Assembly: GCF_019599405.1 (NCBI RefSeq)
Contig: NZ_RKLQ01000003.1
Span: 1-64,000, forward strand
DNA: 64,000 nucleotides
Source: Haloarcula salinisoli
GTDB lineage: Archaea; Halobacteriota; Halobacteria; Halobacteriales; Haloarculaceae
Direction: 5' to 3'
The position numbers were made by a program, and so were the translations under genes. This document shows positions 32,650 through 52,326 of the stretch, piece by piece (positions within the stretch are counted from its first letter, which is position 1; every line of letters begins with the position of its first letter). The notes beneath the pieces are model-generated. The model worked only from the letters and a program-made list of their open reading frames with translations. It had not been told where the DNA came from and searched no databases.

Positions 32650-32792
32650 CATCGTCACACAACTACGCTGTCGGCTGTCGACCGGTCACCCGCACGCGCT
32701 GGTGCGGGTGGGCTGGGACTGACCATCGGCAGTGTTGCCGCCGTTTTTCCAAAGCACGTTGTTTATTGGGGGGGACCTCTAGTATATGTGCA

Positions 32793-34634
32793 ATGACTGA
32801 TTCGACCACCGAGGTTGTCCGCCTGTTCGGTGGGCCGGGGAGCGGGAAGACGACTGCCCTGCTGGACCGAGTCGAGGAGCTGCTCGAAGACGACGACGTC
32901 GATTTCCGCGACGTACTGGTGGTTTCCTACACCCGTGCGGCGGCCGCCGAAATCCGTGAACGGCTGGCCGAGCGACTCGACGTGACCCCCCGAGCGCTGC
33001 AGGGGAACGTCTGTACGATGCACGCCAAGGCCTACGAACTACTCAATCTCTCGCGGGGCGACGTGGTCGGCGAGAGCGACAAGGAGGAGTTCTGTGACGA
33101 GTTCGGTATCGAGTTCGAGGACGAGTACGAGGGGTCACGGCGGCGGTCGGCCCGCTCGACGACACTCGGCAACAAGATCATCGCGACGAGTCAGTGGCTC
33201 CAGCGCACCCGCCGTGACGTCGCTGACTGGTACGACGTCCCGTTCAAGTGGGACGACGAGGAGGTCCGGCTTCCCCCCGAAATCGACGACAACGCCCAGA
33301 CTGGGAACAAGTACACGCCGACGTGGCCCACCGACGACGACCGCGTCGACGTCCCCGCCGCTATCCGGGGCTGGCGGACCTACAAGGGCGACAACGACCT
33401 CACCGGCTTCGCCGACATGCTCGAACGTGTCGCCCAGCGCTCCCTGCTCCCGAACGTCGATTACCTCATCATCGACGAGTTCCAGGACATCACGACGTTG
33501 CAGTACGACGTCTACGAGGAGTGGAAACCCCACATGAAGCGGGTGCTCATCGCCGGCGACGACGACCAGGTCGTCTACGCCTGGCAGGGCGCCGACCCCG
33601 ACCTCCTGCTCGAAGAAGACGTCACACAGGACGAGATTCTCCCCAACTCCTACCGGCTGCCCTCGCGCATTCTCAACGTCGTCAATCGCGAGGTCCGCCA
33701 CATCGAGAAGCGCCAGGAGAAAGACCTCAACCCCCGCAAGGAGGGCGGCCGCGTCGAGGCGGTCCAGAACCCTTCGATGTTCGACCTGGCACGGAACGTC
33801 ATCGGCACCGTCGACCAGGCCGACGAGACCGTGATGGTCCTCTTTCGGGCGCGCTACCAGATGTTCCAGTTCATCGATGAGTTCATCGACGAGGGCATCC
33901 CCTTCTCGTGTCTGACCGACCAGCGGATGTGGACCGACCGCCTGAGCCAGTACGTCGCCGCCATCGAGGCCGTCGAGAACGACGAGCCCCTCTCCGTGCT
34001 GGAGGCCCGCCGCCTGGCCGATATGCTCGCCGATTCGGCCTTCGGCACCGGCGAGCGCGACGACTTCTTCGACGCGCTGGAGGACATCGAGGAGGACCAC
34101 GAGGCCGACGACATCGCCGAAATCGAGATCGAGCCCGACGTCGTCACCGACCACGTCCCCTTCGTCCCAGACCCCGCCTCCGCCAGCGATATGCTCCGGA
34201 AGGTCACCAACTTCCAGGAGCGCACCGTCGGCGCCTACTTCGCGGGCGAGTACCAGGGGATGGACCCCAACTGCGTCCGTCTGGGCACCATCCACTCCGC
34301 GAAGGGTCGCGAGGCCGACCACGTCTTCGTCGCCACCGACCTCACCGAGAAGGTCGTCGAGCAGATGGCCGCCACGGTCGAGAAAAAGGGTGTCGAGGTC
34401 CCCGAAGTAGAGGAGTTCACCAAACACACGAGCCCCGTGCCCACGCTGACCGACAACGAGCGCCGGGTCTTCTACGTCGGGATGTCCCGCGCCCGCGAAC
34501 GACTCGTCCTCATGGAGAACCTCGTCGACGGCGCGCCGACCCTGCCCATCGACGTGTTGCTGGAGAACGCCCCCTCCGAGCGCTCTATCGAGGAACTGCT
34601 CGACGAGGCCGGCGAAGCCGTCGCCGCCGACTAA
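32793..34634 (+). CDS. UvrD/PcrA-like superfamily 1 DNA helicase
   Basis: 613 residues. Motif I GGPGSGKTT (about 12-20), Ia SYTRAAA, motif II DEFQDI (about 228-233), motif III GDDDQVVYAWQGA (about 253-265), motif IV-like NSYRLPSRI, motif V IHSAKGREADHVFV (about 500-513) and motif VI VGMSRARERL (about 563-572). It is a compact SF1A helicase, probably 3'-5', for repair. ATG 32793 is chosen since tttatt at 32762-32767 is about 28 nt upstream. Not assignable to Rep, PcrA or UvrD specifically. Confidence 0.9.
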   Translation: MTDSTTEVVRLFGGPGSGKTTALLDRVEELLEDDDVDFRDVLVVSYTRAAAAEIRERLAERLDVTPRALQGNVCTMHAKAYELLNLSRGDVVGESDKEEFCDEFGIEFEDEYEGSRRRSARSTTLGNKIIATSQWLQRTRRDVADWYDVPFKWDDEEVRLPPEIDDNAQTGNKYTPTWPTDDDRVDVPAAIRGWRTYKGDNDLTGFADMLERVAQRSLLPNVDYLIIDEFQDITTLQYDVYEEWKPHMKRVLIAGDDDQVVYAWQGADPDLLLEEDVTQDEILPNSYRLPSRILNVVNREVRHIEKRQEKDLNPRKEGGRVEAVQNPSMFDLARNVIGTVDQADETVMVLFRARYQMFQFIDEFIDEGIPFSCLTDQRMWTDRLSQYVAAIEAVENDEPLSVLEARRLADMLADSAFGTGERDDFFDALEDIEEDHEADDIAEIEIEPDVVTDHVPFVPDPASASDMLRKVTNFQERTVGAYFAGEYQGMDPNCVRLGTIHSAKGREADHVFVATDLTEKVVEQMAATVEKKGVEVPEVEEFTKHTSPVPTLTDNERRVFYVGMSRARERLVLMENLVDGAPTLPIDVLLENAPSERSIEELLDEAGEAVAAD

Positions 34635-34889
34635 TTACTCGCCGTTCTCGGAGTCGGACGCCTCGGTCTCGACCACTTTCCCGACTGTCTCCTCCGCGAC
34701 CTTCCCCGGTACGTCCGTCGGCGTCGTGAGATACTCCTCGACGAGGACCAGCCCGACCGCGATGCCGACGTACAACGCTCCGGCGAGCAGTTCCCCGCGA
34801 ATCAGGTGCTCCGCGCCGAACAGCGCTATCGGGATGGCCAGAACGAGTGTGGCAGCCAGCCCAATCGTCTCCAGGATTCCCCGTGCCAT
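34635..34889 (-). CDS. Small membrane protein, DUF7533-like
   Basis: 84 residues: MARGILETIGLAATLVLAIP..., two predicted membrane helices, a conserved-looking VLVEEYLTTPTDVPGKVAEETV, and an acidic tail. It matches a haloarchaeal DUF7533-type protein as I recall. It is convergent with the helicase (stop codons adjacent). ATG 34889 is preferred over 34940 because the upstream residues are basic. Function unknown. Confidence 0.78.
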   Translation of the reverse strand: MARGILETIGLAATLVLAIPIALFGAEHLIRGELLAGALYVGIAVGLVLVEEYLTTPTDVPGKVAEETVGKVVETEASDSENGE

Positions 34890-34967
34890 GGCTAGGGGCT
34901 TGCGACGACGGGAGAAAAGGCCAGCGGGATGGCTCACCAACAGCTGGGACTCCCAAACAGCTTACTG

Positions 34968-35354
34968 ACAGCCAGAAAGCCCCGGCCGTGTCGACTCGGG
35001 GGGCTTGCTGCGCTCCTCGGCCTTCGGCCTGCGGTGCTTGCGTCGCCCGCCTTCGTCGACACGGCCGCCCCTTTCAGTCCACCCGTAGCCAGTTGACCAG
35101 CCGGCATGGGTGGGACTGAAAGGGGCCGACCGCTCGGGGAAGCTCGACGATGTCGCCGAAAGACGGCAGCGCCGTCTTTCGAGATGATGAAAATCGTCGG
35201 CGGCGATTTTCAGATCACAAGCACTGGAAGGAACGAAGTGACTGAAGTCGTTCGAAAGGCGCTGCACGCCTTTCGTGATGACGAGAGACCGGGGGTCTCT
35301 CGAACCACGCACAGCGAGACGCGCGACCCGTGCGGTCGGGGGCTTTCTGGCTGT
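34968..35354. repeat. Hairpin-array element A (387 bp, terminal inverted repeats)
   Basis: The ends are inverted copies: ACAGCCAGAAAGCCCC (34968-34983) and its complement (35339-35354). Inside are GGCCGTGTCGAC / GTCGACACGGCC (34984-34995 / 35055-35066), an imperfect 17/18-base inverted pair starting CCCCTTTCAGTCC (35068-35084 / 35108-35125), then four short perfect hairpins at 35157-35181, 35188-35212, 35253-35275 and 35282-35302. Stretches between them carry GATGATGA, GATCAC and GTGATGACG. No gene is present. It is homologous to element B (51908-52326) in opposite orientation. No transposase lies inside, so if mobile it is non-autonomous. Confidence 0.85.
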
Positions 35355-35432
35355 TCACAGGCACAGTCGCTCAATCACTGACGACTGCTAGCGGGGAGTA
35401 CGTTCTTACCTTCGGACACAGAACGACGAATT

Positions 35433-35924
35433 ATGCTAGTCGGCATCGTCTCGGACACGCACGACAACGGCGAACAGGTCGACGCAGCAGTCGAGGCGTT
35501 CGAAGAGCGGGGGGTCGAGACGGTCGTCCACTGTGGCGACTTCGTCGCGCCCTTCTCGGTGACGCCGTTCGACGGCGACTGGGACTTCTATGCGGTGCGG
35601 GGCAACAACGACGGTGAGTGGGCCGTCGAGGCCACCGTCGACGACTTCGGCACCTACATGGGCGAGATGGGCGAGCTCACGCTGGATGGGCAGGAAGTAG
35701 CGGTGTATCACGGTACCAGCGGGGCCATCGTCGACGCGCTGGTCGAGTGTGGCACCTACGACTACGTCTTCCACGGCCACACCCACGAGGCGGGGACCGA
35801 GGAGTACGAGGGGACGGTGCGGGTCAACCCCGGCGGGATTGCGATTCCGCCCGCGCCGGGCGCGTTCTCGGTCGCGACGCTGGACACCGAAAGCGGCGAA
35901 CTAGAATTTCACGAACTGGAGTGA
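35433..35924 (+). CDS. YfcE/MJ0936-type metallophosphodiesterase
   Basis: 163 residues, standard size. Metal ligands are visible in DTH (residues 8-10), HCGDF (about 33-37), GNND (about 57-60), a YHG step (about 92-94) and GHTH (about 113-116). The family hydrolyses phosphodiesters with Mn2+ or Ni2+ (MJ0936, YfcE); the natural substrate is unknown. The gene follows element A by about 80 bp. Confidence 0.9.
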   Translation: MLVGIVSDTHDNGEQVDAAVEAFEERGVETVVHCGDFVAPFSVTPFDGDWDFYAVRGNNDGEWAVEATVDDFGTYMGEMGELTLDGQEVAVYHGTSGAIVDALVECGTYDYVFHGHTHEAGTEEYEGTVRVNPGGIAIPPAPGAFSVATLDTESGELEFHELE

Positions 35925-36716: not shown

Positions 36717-36832
36717 TCAGACGTCCGGTTCGACGACCCGGTCTTCGCCGTCGAAGTGCGCGGAGTTGTCCTGCGGGCGGTAGTTCAGGGCCTCTTTGGC
36801 GCGGTCGATGGAGTAGTACTTGCGGTCGTTGT
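36717..36832 (-). pseudogene. Orphan 3' end of azf (left att of the island)
   Basis: Encodes NDRKYYSIDRAKEALNYRPQ and onward to the stop after VVEPDV, the last about 38 residues of Azf, without any 5' part. It matches 43857-43971 at 108 of 115 positions. It is the outer copy left when the island inserted into the azf 3' end. Sequence upstream of it (36833-36881) is island DNA, so it cannot be expressed as part of Azf. Confidence 0.85.
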
Positions 36833-36881
36833 GCCTCGCTGCGCTCGGCAAGTCTCGCTCGTCAGTCGGTTCGGAGCAATA

Positions 36882-37925
36882 ATGAACTCGCAACAGAACG
36901 CCCCGGACCAACACGCACAGACACTCGAACCACTGGCACCTGCGGAAGCACAATCACTCTATCTCCAGTCACGACAGGATGAGTTAGCCGACCGTTCACT
37001 CCAGCTCCACGAGAAGCACGTCGGGTCGTTCGTGGAGTGGTACACCGATAAGGCCGGGTCAGAGGCGAATATGAACGACGTGACGGCCCGTACTGTCCAT
37101 GAGTATCAGCTGCACATCAAAGGCGGATTCGCTCAATCTACGGTAAGCATCTATCTCAGTACTGTCCGGCAATTCGTGGAGTTTTGTGAAAGTATAGATG
37201 CTGTAGTGGGCGGGACGTCTCAGAAAATCGTTCTCCCCGACCGCGACCGCAATGCTCGCACTGAAATGCTGGAATCAGACGACGCGACCGCGATACTGTC
37301 GTATCTACGCAAGTACCACTACGCAAGCCGTACGCACGCGCTCATGGCGCTCCTCTGGCACACGGGGATTCGGACGGGGACAGTACGGGCGCTTGATGTG
37401 AATGACTTAGACGCCGAACGCGAGCGTCTACGGATTCGCCATCGTCCCGATACGGATACGCCGCTGAAGAACACTGAGAAGGCCGAGAGATACATTGCAC
37501 TCTCTGCCGAGGTGAGCGAAATTCTCGAAGACTACGCCGATAAGGCCCGCCACGGCGTAACTGACGACCACGACCGAGAACCGTTGTTTACCACCAGACA
37601 GGGTCGGCCAGCGAAGAACTCTATCAGACGGAATATCTACGCAGCTACGCGTCCCTGTGCGACGGGTCGAGGCTGTCCACATAACAAGGACCCAGATACC
37701 TGCGAAGCTGCACAGCGTACCAACGACGCCTGCAAATGTCCCTCTACAGTCTCGGGCCATCCTGTGCGACGTGGTGCTATTACCCATCACCTTCGTCAAG
37801 ATGTACCCGAGAAGGTCGTTTCCGACCGTATGAACGTCTCGCAGGACGTTCTCGATGAACACTACGACCGTCGGACTGAAGACGAAAAGGCAGAGCAGCG
37901 GAGGCAATTCCTCTCTAACGTGTAG
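36882..37925 (+). CDS. Tyrosine recombinase (integrase)
   Basis: 347 residues. A SAM-like N-terminal core-binding domain (about 35-125) is followed by the catalytic domain. The catalytic Arg lies in HTGIRTGTVRALD (about 157-169), the HxxR block is GHPVRRG (about 294-300) and the nucleophile Tyr is in LDEHYDRR (about 329-336). Cysteines in the insert CATGRGCPHNK...CKC suggest a zinc knob typical of haloarchaeal integrases. It should recombine the azf-derived att sites flanking the island. ATG 36882 is chosen because upstream codons are antisense azf and spacer. Confidence 0.93.
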   Translation: MNSQQNAPDQHAQTLEPLAPAEAQSLYLQSRQDELADRSLQLHEKHVGSFVEWYTDKAGSEANMNDVTARTVHEYQLHIKGGFAQSTVSIYLSTVRQFVEFCESIDAVVGGTSQKIVLPDRDRNARTEMLESDDATAILSYLRKYHYASRTHALMALLWHTGIRTGTVRALDVNDLDAERERLRIRHRPDTDTPLKNTEKAERYIALSAEVSEILEDYADKARHGVTDDHDREPLFTTRQGRPAKNSIRRNIYAATRPCATGRGCPHNKDPDTCEAAQRTNDACKCPSTVSGHPVRRGAITHHLRQDVPEKVVSDRMNVSQDVLDEHYDRRTEDEKAEQRRQFLSNV

Positions 37926-38075
37926 CCTCCTTTCGACGTGGCTACGTCACCGAGGCGTTGAACGCCGGACAGCCGAAGAAGGTGACTCTTGATAGGTGGT
38001 GTGATAGAAATATCTTGGAGAAATTCTATCTCTGGTCCAATTTACTAACTAATGCGACCGATTTTCTTTCAGCGG

Positions 38076-38786
38076 TTACTCTTGGTTAGTCTCGACACGA
38101 TTAGCCCTCTGATAGTATGCAATCGCCAGCAGATTGCCTATCACGTACGCACCCCACGCTTGTTTATCAGGTAAGAAGCGAGTGAGTCCTCCTATGAGAC
38201 CGCTGGTTATGAACAGAAGATATGTCTCATCGACCTTCCCGCCGACTACCTGTAATGCTTCATAAGTTCGCTGAAATGCGAACCGAACATGAAACTGATA
38301 AAGGAAATTTTCAATTTCTATATCAAGCCTTCGTTCAGATTCGACAGTCGTTGCATTGTTGGCCTCTCCTAACTGGCTGGGACCGTAATCCACAGAATTA
38401 AAACTTGGTTCTATTTGTCCCGGGATATTCATTTCAGAGAACATACCGGGAGCGTGCGTTAGTTCATGCGACAGTCTGGATAGTGGAAAAGTGATTTTCG
38501 GTAGTTCAACAGCGGAGGCAACCTCTTGGGAGATAGGTTGGCCTACATTCGCCAGCGGGGCCAACTGTTTCGACATATCCAACCCAGCCAGCGGGGCCAA
38601 CTGTTTCGACATATCCAACCCAGCCAATGGGGCTAATTCTTCCGACATATCCAACCCAGCCAATGGGGCTAATTCTTCCGACATATCCAACCCGTTGAGT
38701 GCGAACGACTGAGTCATATCTAACCCAGCAAGAAAAGACAGGTCTTCCGAAATATTTGGATATTCACCGGAGCAGTCGTCAGACAT
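38076..38786 (-). CDS. Membrane protein with 12-residue tandem repeats
   Basis: 236 residues. Residues about 13-80 hold six copies of a 12-residue unit, consensus LAGLDMSEELAP; the central ones are encoded by nearly identical 36-bp DNA repeats. A middle region follows, and the C-terminus has two hydrophobic helices (LLFITSGLIGGLTRFL and WGAYVIGNLLAIAYY). The unit suggests an amphipathic helix or solenoid in front of a membrane anchor. ATG 38786 is supported by a T-rich TATA region about 28 nt upstream. No known domain. A membrane effector of a defence system or a superinfection factor is possible, but unproven. Confidence 0.75.
   Translation of the reverse strand: MSDDCSGEYPNISEDLSFLAGLDMTQSFALNGLDMSEELAPLAGLDMSEELAPLAGLDMSKQLAPLAGLDMSKQLAPLANVGQPISQEVASAVELPKITFPLSRLSHELTHAPGMFSEMNIPGQIEPSFNSVDYGPSQLGEANNATTVESERRLDIEIENFLYQFHVRFAFQRTYEALQVVGGKVDETYLLFITSGLIGGLTRFLPDKQAWGAYVIGNLLAIAYYQRANRVETNQE
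38520..38712 (-). repeat. 36-bp tandem repeats inside the 236-aa gene
   Basis: Units such as GGGGCCAACTGTTTCGACAT plus 16 nt recur four times almost exactly (about 38558-38700), with degenerate units at both ends. They stay in frame and have no unrelated spacers, so this is a coding repeat that can expand or contract by slippage, not a CRISPR array. Confidence 0.85.
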
Positions 38787-38849
38787 CTTTTGTATACTAA
38801 GATTACAATTAAAAAAAGAGTTGCGCCGTATCACTAATTCGGTGGAAGT

Positions 38850-39290
38850 TCACACCGATTTCCAGAGCCTATAGAACAAGAAGAAAAACACGCTAATAGT
38901 CACAAATGGAAGTAGGATTAAAAGTAGAGATTCACCCCAGTAGGTGACAGTCTGACTGCCGAATCTTTGATGTATGAGAACTACCCAAAGAAGCCAAGCA
39001 ACCCCAGCGACACCAATCAAAAGGCTCGCAAAAAATACTTTGATGCCAAACTGCCAGCCAGACTCTGCGTGACTGAGAAGCCAATTCGGAACACTCTCCG
39101 GTGCGCCATATTTTCTCGCCATGAATCCGAGGCCGAGCAAGAAACCGATGACAGTTCCACTCGCCACTCCAAGAACATAATCTACTCTCAGTACTGCTTC
39201 TGCGACAACACCGAGTATTAGTGTGGATAAGAAAGTTCCAAAAAACGCGGCAAGCCAATTACTAAAGTTAGATGAATCAGATTCTGTCAT
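38850..39290 (-). CDS. Four-helix membrane protein of the island
   Basis: 146 residues with about four predicted membrane helices (WLAAFFGTFLSTLILGVVAE; VLGVASGTVIGFLLGLGF; VFFASLLIGVAGVAWLLWVV; LLLILLPFVTISVFFFLFY). It is upstream of the repeat-bearing gene on the same strand (about 60 bp apart), so the two may be one operon of membrane proteins. AT-rich codon use fits the island rather than the chromosome. No family recognised. Confidence 0.72.
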   Translation of the reverse strand: MTESDSSNFSNWLAAFFGTFLSTLILGVVAEAVLRVDYVLGVASGTVIGFLLGLGFMARKYGAPESVPNWLLSHAESGWQFGIKVFFASLLIGVAGVAWLLWVVLIHQRFGSQTVTYWGESLLLILLPFVTISVFFFLFYRLWKSV

Positions 39291-39415
39291 CGGTTGTTAT
39301 CTTCATACGTAGTTCTGAACGAGGCAAAATGTAACCCCCAGTTACCACACTAATTCCAATGAAGTTCGCTCGGTTTGCACCATTTTAAAAGGGGCTCGCT
39401 ACAGAGAGTATAGCA

Positions 39416-40474
39416 ATGGACCGGGACGAGATTGACGAGTACGTCCAGCGGTGTCAGCAGCTTATCGAAGCCTCACCGCAGATGGACGAGGAAAACACGA
39501 AGGTCAAACTCATTCAGCCGTTTCTGGAACTCCTCGGGTGGGACCTCTACTCTACCGAAGTCGCGCTGGAATACACTATCCCGATGGCTTCAGGAAGTAC
39601 GCACGTCGATTATGCTCTTCTCGTAGGGGATTCGCCTGTGGTCTTCGTTGAAGCCAAGCCAGTACGGTCTACCCTCACTGACAGCGAAGTTCAGCAGCTG
39701 CGGAGTTATATGCGACAAGAACTTGATGTGGACTGGGGAATTCTGACCAACGGAAAATCCTTCGAGGTTCTGACCAAGAACCACCGTGGCAACGGAGGAG
39801 AGGAGGTGTCTGTCGCTCAATTTAACCTCGATGACCTATCCGATAACCCCGGTGTGCTGGAACTACTTACGAAGGAGTCGATACGCTCAGGGAAATCGGA
39901 CGAAGTCGCGGAGCAGGTCGCAGAGACAAACCGGGCAATCCGGCATCTACAAGAAAACGAAGACAGCGTCACTAAGGCTGTGAGCGAGGCGGTCGAAAAA
40001 GAGGTTGGAGAACTTACGATTGACCTCGAAGAACAGTCGCGGGAGTTCACACAGAACCTCGTCTCTGTCCTACGAGAACAGCGTCACTTCGTTAGTGATG
40101 AACCTCTATCCAAACCCGATAAGGCCGCGAGAGCATCCGGGGACAAAAACGAAACCACACACAGCACCGAAACACCAGAGGATAGTATCTCTCCAGTGCC
40201 AGATGTCTCTGATTTCAAGACAGATACGGACAAGCGGTTTTATAAACGGCTCAAAAACAAGTCAGATTCACAGCCTGCAGTTTACAGGAGATTAATTAGA
40301 AATGAGGGAAAAGTATCACGACCAAGATTTGATGAATTAGCAGAAAAAGAGGGATTCAATCCGGGTGGTGGGGGACACAATGCCTCTCTGCTGGTCTTGG
40401 AAAGAGTAACAGACGAAATCGAACGCCGAGGGAGGGGTGATGACCAAGTCCTTGTCTGGGTGGGTGAAAATTGA
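39416..40474 (+). CDS. HsdR-N (type I restriction R-subunit N-terminal) nuclease-domain protein
   Basis: 352 residues. The first about 150 residues match HSDR_N: KVKLIQPFLELLGWDL, HVDYALLVGDSPVVFVEAKP with the PD-(D/E)XK residues Asp (HVD), Glu and Lys (EAK), then LRSYMRQELDVDWGILTNG. A coiled-coil middle (about 160-220) and a small C-terminal domain follow. No helicase, HsdM or HsdS is nearby, so it is not a full type I system. A stand-alone nuclease or single-gene defence factor is the likeliest reading. It is flanked by 1.3 kb of non-coding DNA. Confidence 0.82.
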   Translation: MDRDEIDEYVQRCQQLIEASPQMDEENTKVKLIQPFLELLGWDLYSTEVALEYTIPMASGSTHVDYALLVGDSPVVFVEAKPVRSTLTDSEVQQLRSYMRQELDVDWGILTNGKSFEVLTKNHRGNGGEEVSVAQFNLDDLSDNPGVLELLTKESIRSGKSDEVAEQVAETNRAIRHLQENEDSVTKAVSEAVEKEVGELTIDLEEQSREFTQNLVSVLREQRHFVSDEPLSKPDKAARASGDKNETTHSTETPEDSISPVPDVSDFKTDTDKRFYKRLKNKSDSQPAVYRRLIRNEGKVSRPRFDELAEKEGFNPGGGGHNASLLVLERVTDEIERRGRGDDQVLVWVGEN

Positions 40475-51861: not shown

Positions 51862-51907
51862 TGTTGTACTGAACGTTGGGTTTGTTTTATTCGGCAACGA
51901 CTCAGAG

Positions 51908-52326
51908 AGCCAGAAAGCCCGCGTACTCTCGACCGCCGATAGACTCACTCCGTTCGTCGTTCCAGTGCTTTCGTCGCCGTGCTTCGTCGAGAGCACGCCC
52001 CCTTTCAGTCCCACCCAGACCGATTGGTCAACTGGCTACGGGCGGGACTGAAAGGGGCGTTGTCGGCGTGATCCGATGGAGCTTCGCTCTCTCGAACCAC
52101 GAAGGAAGCGCGTCGTTCGAAAATCGAAGATTTTCGTGATCACGAAAGGCGCTGCGCGCCTTTCGGACGACAGCGAGTCGTGAGACCGAAGCCAGGGCGA
52201 GAGCGAAGTCGTCCGGGAGAGCTACGCTCTCCCGTGATCACGAAAGACCGCTCTGCGGTCTTTCGGACGACTCTCGCGGGCAATCGGACGCTTCGCGTCC
52301 GATGACAGCCGGGGCTTTCTGGCTGT
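51908..52326. repeat. Hairpin-array element B (about 419 bp), inverted relative to A
   Basis: Outer ends AGCCAGAAAGCCC (51908-51920) and GGGCTTTCTGGCT (52312-52324). CCCCTTTCAGTCCCACCC (51999-52016) pairs with GGGCGGGACTGAAAGGGG (52040-52057) around a loop sharing 14 bases (ggtcaactggctac) with the reverse strand of element A. Then come hairpins at 52118-52136, 52143-52165, 52214-52234, 52241-52265 and 52283-52303, linked by TGATCA and GGACGAC. No gene is present. The same modules as element A in another combination suggest a family of mobile or slippage-built repeats. Confidence 0.85.

Follow-up and report, generated by a model that had tools for sequence, protein, structure and literature searches.

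The window analysed here, a stretch of 64,000 nucleotides from Haloarcula salinisoli, carries between a DUF7533 gene and a gene for a calcineurin-like phosphoesterase a block of 387 bp (positions 34968-35354), framed by 16-bp ends that are exact reverse complements of each other (Table 1). A first-pass annotation had described this block as a gene-free array of perfect hairpins and had proposed a non-autonomous mobile element or a structured DNA or RNA, perhaps moved by a Y1-type transposase. The inverted ends, the inner inverted pair and the four separate stem-loops of that description are all present, each of the stem-loops being perfect, and the ORF list of the block holds no gene-like ORF; an ORF of 116 aa that spans the block on the minus strand was judged to be a by-product of the palindromes. 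A tyrosine-recombinase gene and an HsdR_N-like gene lie near the element, which suggests that positions 36756-40471 of the window are a separate integrated region.

Table 1. Features of the element copy and its surroundings (window positions)
Feature	Position	Strand	Remark
UvrD-like helicase gene	32766-34634		neighbour
DUF7533 gene	about 34635-34895	-	neighbour
Left inverted end, 16 bp, ACAGCCAGAAAGCCCC	34968..34983	+	matched by exact reverse complement
Arm A hairpin	34984..35066	.	folding; within-copy stem pairing
Arm A basal stem, GGCCGTGTCGAC / GTCGACACGGCC	34984-34995 / 35055-35066
Conserved central hairpin, GCCCCTTTCAGTCC...GGACTGAAAGGGGC	35067..35126	.
Inverted pair of central hairpin	35067-35080 / 35113-35126
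Arm B hairpin	35127..35338	.	enlarged by four extra stem-loops
Extra perfect stem-loop 1, CGAAAGACGGCAGCGCCGTCTTTCG	35157..35181	.	missing from most other cores
Extra perfect stem-loop 2, TGAAAATCGTCGGCGGCGATTTTCA	35188..35212	.
Extra perfect stem-loop 3, CGAAAGGCGCTGCACGCCTTTCG	35253..35275	.
Extra perfect stem-loop 4, CGAGAGACCGGGGGTCTCTCG	35282..35302	.
Right inverted end, 16 bp, GGGGCTTTCTGGCTGT on +	35339..35354	-	exact reverse complement of left end
Right outer arm, 33 bp (3n)	35355..35387	.	36 bp at the same place in G002
CTAG, putative right unit border	35388..35391	.	border role from orthologous comparisons
Calcineurin-like phosphoesterase gene	35433-35924		neighbour
Tyrosine-recombinase gene	36756-37922
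HsdR_N-like gene	39416-40471
Second full copy	51906-52326		left end slightly diverged; several extra stem-loops
Central hairpin of second copy	51998-52058

Folded as a single DNA strand, the 387 nt reach -132.9 kcal/mol, compared with -83 +/- 4 for shuffled sequences (z = -11.9), and none of 100 shuffles folded as well. In the predicted fold, the two ends pair to form an outer stem, followed by arm A, the central hairpin and arm B. The earlier description had captured the central pair and the four stem-loops and had missed the hairpins of arms A and B. All four stem-loops sit in arm B, which measures 212 bp in this copy versus a typical length of ~87 bp.

The block belongs to a large family in its own genome, where BLAST returned 211 related pieces in 4.03 Mb, the copies being ~75-85% alike. 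A 15-mer from the inverted end has 187 genomic matches at <=2 mismatches, as opposed to 18 for the reversed control. Of 55 collected cores bounded by an inverted end on each side, 41 include the central hairpin; these full cores, amounting to about 40 full copies, span 174-433 bp, mostly ~260 bp, and no recent near-identical pairs were seen. The extra perfect stem-loops are absent from 24 of the 41 full cores, and the window copy is among only four that carry four of them, so that the hairpin array, taken initially as the defining trait, is a decoration of some copies. A further 19 half-elements (for instance, L139, L151, L138 and L199) comprise a single inverted end together with arm A and one half of the central hairpin, with no partner nearby. 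Small stem-loops of the types CGAAAG...CTTTCG and TGAAAATCG...CGATTTTCA, joined by TGATCA or TGATGA, recur in many cores (e.g. L039, L049 and L081) and vary from one orthologous copy to another, so that they may represent a separate, smaller nested repeat.

The constant part of the family is the three-armed fold, composed of the ends, variable hairpin A, the conserved central hairpin and variable hairpin B. Among 79 unique full cores from H. salinisoli and G002, the sister species that was the nearest relative used, the basal stem of arm A is complementary within the copy at 9/9 positions in 60 cores and that of arm B in 61, whereas strands taken from different copies pair in this way in 2.3% and 3.4% of cases, respectively. 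Arm A and arm B of one copy never gave a 9/9 match in the 79 cores. Thus, each arm is self-pairing, with stems that vary in sequence but preserve their pairing; as judged from this covariation, the stem structure of both arms is evidently constrained, which lends weight to the initial suggestion of a structured DNA or RNA.

Relatives of the element extend well beyond the species. A search of haloarchaeal genomes, a step proposed already in the first-pass annotation, covered 60 genomes belonging to the genus, the family or the order and recovered relatives in 55 of them, including 47 of the 47 genomes of good quality and 22 of 26 genera. A scan for the 16-mer end gave exact ends in named haloarchaea, among them Haloarcula, Halomicroarcula, Halorussus, Haloarchaeobius, Halorhabdus, Haloparvum and Halovenus; scattered bacterial matches in the same scan were taken as chance. 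Diverged matches were found on plasmids of Natrinema, Halobaculum, Natribaculum and others. Phage records yielded no match, and the central motif was absent from all IMG/VR viral contigs, among which the 16-mer end matched nine times. In a single case seen, in Halorussus amylolyticus (L229:6006-7663), a gene for a luciferase-like monooxygenase (PF00296) occupies precisely the central-hairpin loop, in the manner of a cargo gene of the element. The exact strings TTTCAGTCCCACC and AGCCAGAAAGCCCC were not found in open-access full texts and, judged from that literature, the family is apparently undescribed.

Comparison of orthologous sites between H. salinisoli and G002 showed that the mobile unit is larger than the 387-bp block. 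The host sequences share ~92% identity as far as a border, which is often CTAG; from there to the inverted end the sequences are unrelated or strongly diverged (for instance, at L063/L289, L059/L290 and L042/L311), and the core differs too. Accordingly, the replaceable unit reaches past the inverted ends, which lie 24-90 bp inside the border: the ends recognised in the first-pass annotation are real, and an outer arm beyond each of them also belongs to the unit. Many units have CTAG on both sides. To the left of the window copy, the CTAG at 34892 was not taken as the border, since it is host sequence present also in genomes whose sites contain no recognisable element.

Some sites occupied in one sister species are nearly empty in the other (536 vs 14 bp; 452 vs 2 bp), the orthologous site of the second window copy is nearly empty in genome G008 (62 vs 530 bp), and the same CTAG carries different arms and cores in different genomes. 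Empty sites and target duplications had been suggested as worth looking for; the former were found as near-empty sites that differ by a few bases, none being perfectly clean, and no clean or consistent duplication was seen at the compared sites. The near-empty sites could be deletions. Many copies with the same ends, their presence in other genera and the alternation of occupied with unoccupied or differently occupied sites support the proposal of a non-autonomous mobile element with fixed ends.

The window locus illustrates a further property of the family. The sister genome retains both ends of the old copy, the left one truncated (ACTGACAGCCCC) and the right one as GGGGCTTTCTGGCTGTTCACAG, and between them lies the succession GCTAGC, arm, end, mini-core, end, arm, GCTAGC; here, the older palindrome has a new unit at its centre. 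Such nesting is common. In 17 of 73 arms of H. salinisoli and 15 of 62 arms of G002, CTAG is followed at a distance of exactly one base by a second inverted end (<=5 mismatches), compared with 0-1 in the shifted control, which indicates that ~23% of the CTAG-bounded units sit within the palindrome of an older copy. Inverted ends are also stacked at an exact 45-bp spacing, for instance eight at C2:324 kb and five in Haloarcula rara; the stacks at L047:2911-3434 (three plus five ends) and L178:1496-1691 (five ends) have near-identical spacers and decaying outward copies. Repeated nesting, with or without tandem expansion, explains such stacks. The border motif itself is found at about half the expected frequency in the loci of the own genome (244 vs 519 expected), and many border CTAGs coincide with stop codons of host genes, some being common to two convergent genes. 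At L038, the sequence immediately after the CTAG border, read by eye, codes for a TnpB-like C-terminal stretch and has a terminal palindrome of its own, so that an IS1341-type element appears to share this site.

These observations bear on whether the family acts at the RNA level, as a terminator or a regulatory or structured RNA spread by recombination rather than as a transposable unit. The copies are intergenic, often between convergent genes, and share a strong conserved fold, as such an element might; but they also lie upstream of divergent genes, form a near-symmetric palindrome without a fixed strand, and replace one another and nest at orthologous sites. Furthermore, no Rfam family matches the block, the best score being far below the gathering threshold. 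We consider this reading extremely improbable.

The outer arms, although hypervariable in sequence, follow a length rule. For 70 of 74 ends in H. salinisoli, 58 of 62 in G002 and 20 of 27 in other Haloarcula, the number of bases between the inverted end and the first CTAG is divisible by three; among arms of at least 24 bp, 114 of 129 have a length of 3n (binomial p ~1e-38 against one third, relatedness of the arms being ignored). Their composition is likewise periodic in steps of three bases (at outward position 0, C.46, T.27, A.17 and G.10), and this periodicity ends abruptly at CTAG; genomes outside Haloarcula display a weaker pyrimidine periodicity (.63/.46/.37). At the same site, the arms of H. 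salinisoli and G002 mostly have either one length or lengths that are 3, 6, 12, 18 or 33 apart, even where the arm sequences are unrelated. The rule is as strong next to convergent genes as next to divergent ones or in other gene arrangements and, being independent of whether the neighbouring gene points toward or away, belongs to the element. Where a host gene stops at TAG, its frame is mostly that of the inverted end (24/4/1); this was judged a by-product of CTAG being the border at 3n, and a frame linkage to host genes was rejected. Triplet slippage was likewise rejected, adjacent identical triplets not being enriched, and no pairing was seen between left and right outer arms. Adenine mutagenesis of the kind driven by DGRs, brought to mind by the NNY-like pattern, was judged unlikely by eye, because in orthologous arms the changed triplets also alter the third base and the arm lengths differ.

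One explanation of the rule would be that the outer arms are translated tails, read outward in an open frame that crosses the inverted end (as GFLAV) and stops at the TAG of CTAG. The first stop in the outward frame GGC TTT CTG GCT GTn is indeed the TAG of CTAG in 65 of 135 ends, in-frame TAA and TGA are rarer than expected (16 vs 27.9 +/- 4.5), and arm lengths of the sister species differ mostly in threes. However, the inner side shows neither a consistent start codon nor an open frame, the codon preferences are not those of haloarchaea (GAA>GAG, AAA>AAG, with only a weak G at the third position), and both ends of each unit would need to encode a tail, which renders translation distinctly unlikely. 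A somewhat better, still tentative, possibility is that the ends are read by a machinery counting in three-base steps, for which the arm would be free in sequence as long as it keeps to 3n and to a pyrimidine-N-purine lattice. More speculatively, the ruler could be a RecA/RadA- or DnaA-like filament, with three bases per subunit, that measures from the folded core to the cut site. We know of no transposition ruler of the three-base kind and, to our knowledge, the triplet rule has neither a precedent nor an explanation in known transposition chemistries. In any case, it places a sharp constraint on whatever recognises the ends.

The search for a mobiliser covered matching ends 0.5-4 kb apart in the collected loci, which enclosed no transposase; the sole clear gene between such ends was the luciferase-like monooxygenase in Halorussus. 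On one reading, the family would be a palindrome-associated (PATE-like) element that an IS200/IS605 Y1 transposase mobilises in single-stranded form, CTAG serving as the target oligonucleotide. H. salinisoli and G002 encode one Y1_Tnp gene each, and the PATEs of Haloquadratum share the near-terminal palindromes, the heterogeneous terminal sequence of 20-50 bp and the conserved terminal oligonucleotide (PMC3119063). By contrast, the near-complete, copy-rich genomes G001, G008, G025 and G033 contain no Y1_Tnp gene, and the family is symmetric, with true inverted ends and, in many copies, CTAG on both sides. IS200/IS605 elements have no true terminal inverted repeats. We regard this reading, which overlaps with the mover initially proposed, as unlikely, and a Y1 transposase as the obligatory sole driver was rejected on account of the Y1-free genomes rich in copies. 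A MITE of a DDE transposase of the IS630/Tc1 or IS5 type, inserting at CTAG or TA with a short target duplication, would fit the inverted ends, the lack of genes and the CTAG at both borders of many units. Yet the conserved ends lie well inside the border and not at it, no parent element was found in the collected loci, and neither H. salinisoli nor G002 has a DDE_3 (IS630-type) domain, so that this origin is highly doubtful.

Taken together, the evidence favours the view that gene-free palindromic mobile elements, moved in trans, probably form a family spread across the haloarchaea, and that the block is the core of one such copy. The full unit, often bordered by CTAG, reads outer arm, 16-bp inverted end, hairpin A, central hairpin, hairpin B, inverted end, outer arm; orthologous sites may carry the unit, be nearly empty or hold another unit instead, and many units are found at the palindrome centre of an older copy. 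With a palindromic target, a folded core and no clear duplication, the enzyme would more likely act on cruciform or single-stranded DNA. We envisage that the unit is moved as a folded molecule, either a cruciform or a single strand, by a candidate enzyme that would recognise the conserved ends and the fold and join at CTAG, with cruciform-prone DNA, such as an existing copy, as the preferred target. The four stem-loops of the window copy would be later, nested additions.

Structured mobile repeats of archaea have been described in detail mainly in Haloquadratum; the family adds to archaeal genomes a mobile repeat that is class-wide, highly structured and self-nesting. Among the known systems, MITEs are similarly small, gene-free and intergenic and have inverted ends, but the present elements have no parent transposon with the same ends in the collected loci, their ends are not at the border and no defined duplication accompanies them. 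The bacterial REP/REPIN-RAYT systems also form high-copy intergenic palindromes in composite arrangements. REPs, however, are 20-40 bp long with a GTAG or CGTC tag (PMC3733652), whereas the units here are three-armed, measure 250-400 bp and are bordered by CTAG, and Y1 is missing from several carriers.

The closest parallels come from Haloquadratum walsbyi. In its PATEs, palindromes lie near the ends, the terminal sequence is heterogeneous over 20-50 bp and the target oligonucleotide is conserved (PMC3119063). The family resembles them in the palindromes near the ends, the heterogeneous terminal stretch of that length and the short conserved oligonucleotide at the border, whereas PATEs lack inverted ends and resemble IS605 transposons, in contrast to the exact 16-bp inverted ends found here. 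The SMR-A repeats (HqIRS42/43/55) are ~110 bp long, have inverted ends, no target duplication and an enigmatic mobiliser, and insert within the near-terminal palindromes of PATE/IS605 elements (PMC3119063). Shared with these are the absence of genes, the prominent inverted ends, a length too short for a transposase and the tens of copies. In the present family, no consistent target duplication was seen, CTAG often stands on both sides, and the insertions into palindromes are into those of its own kind. The cores described here are, however, longer (174-433 bp versus ~110 bp) and three-armed, and they are flanked by hypervariable 3n outer arms; the comparison with HqIRS42/43/55 is one of descriptions. 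The family combines traits of SMR-A and of PATEs without demonstrably sharing all that defines either, and the best reading would be a palindromic element mobilised in trans that resembles the SMR/PATE repeats of Haloquadratum.
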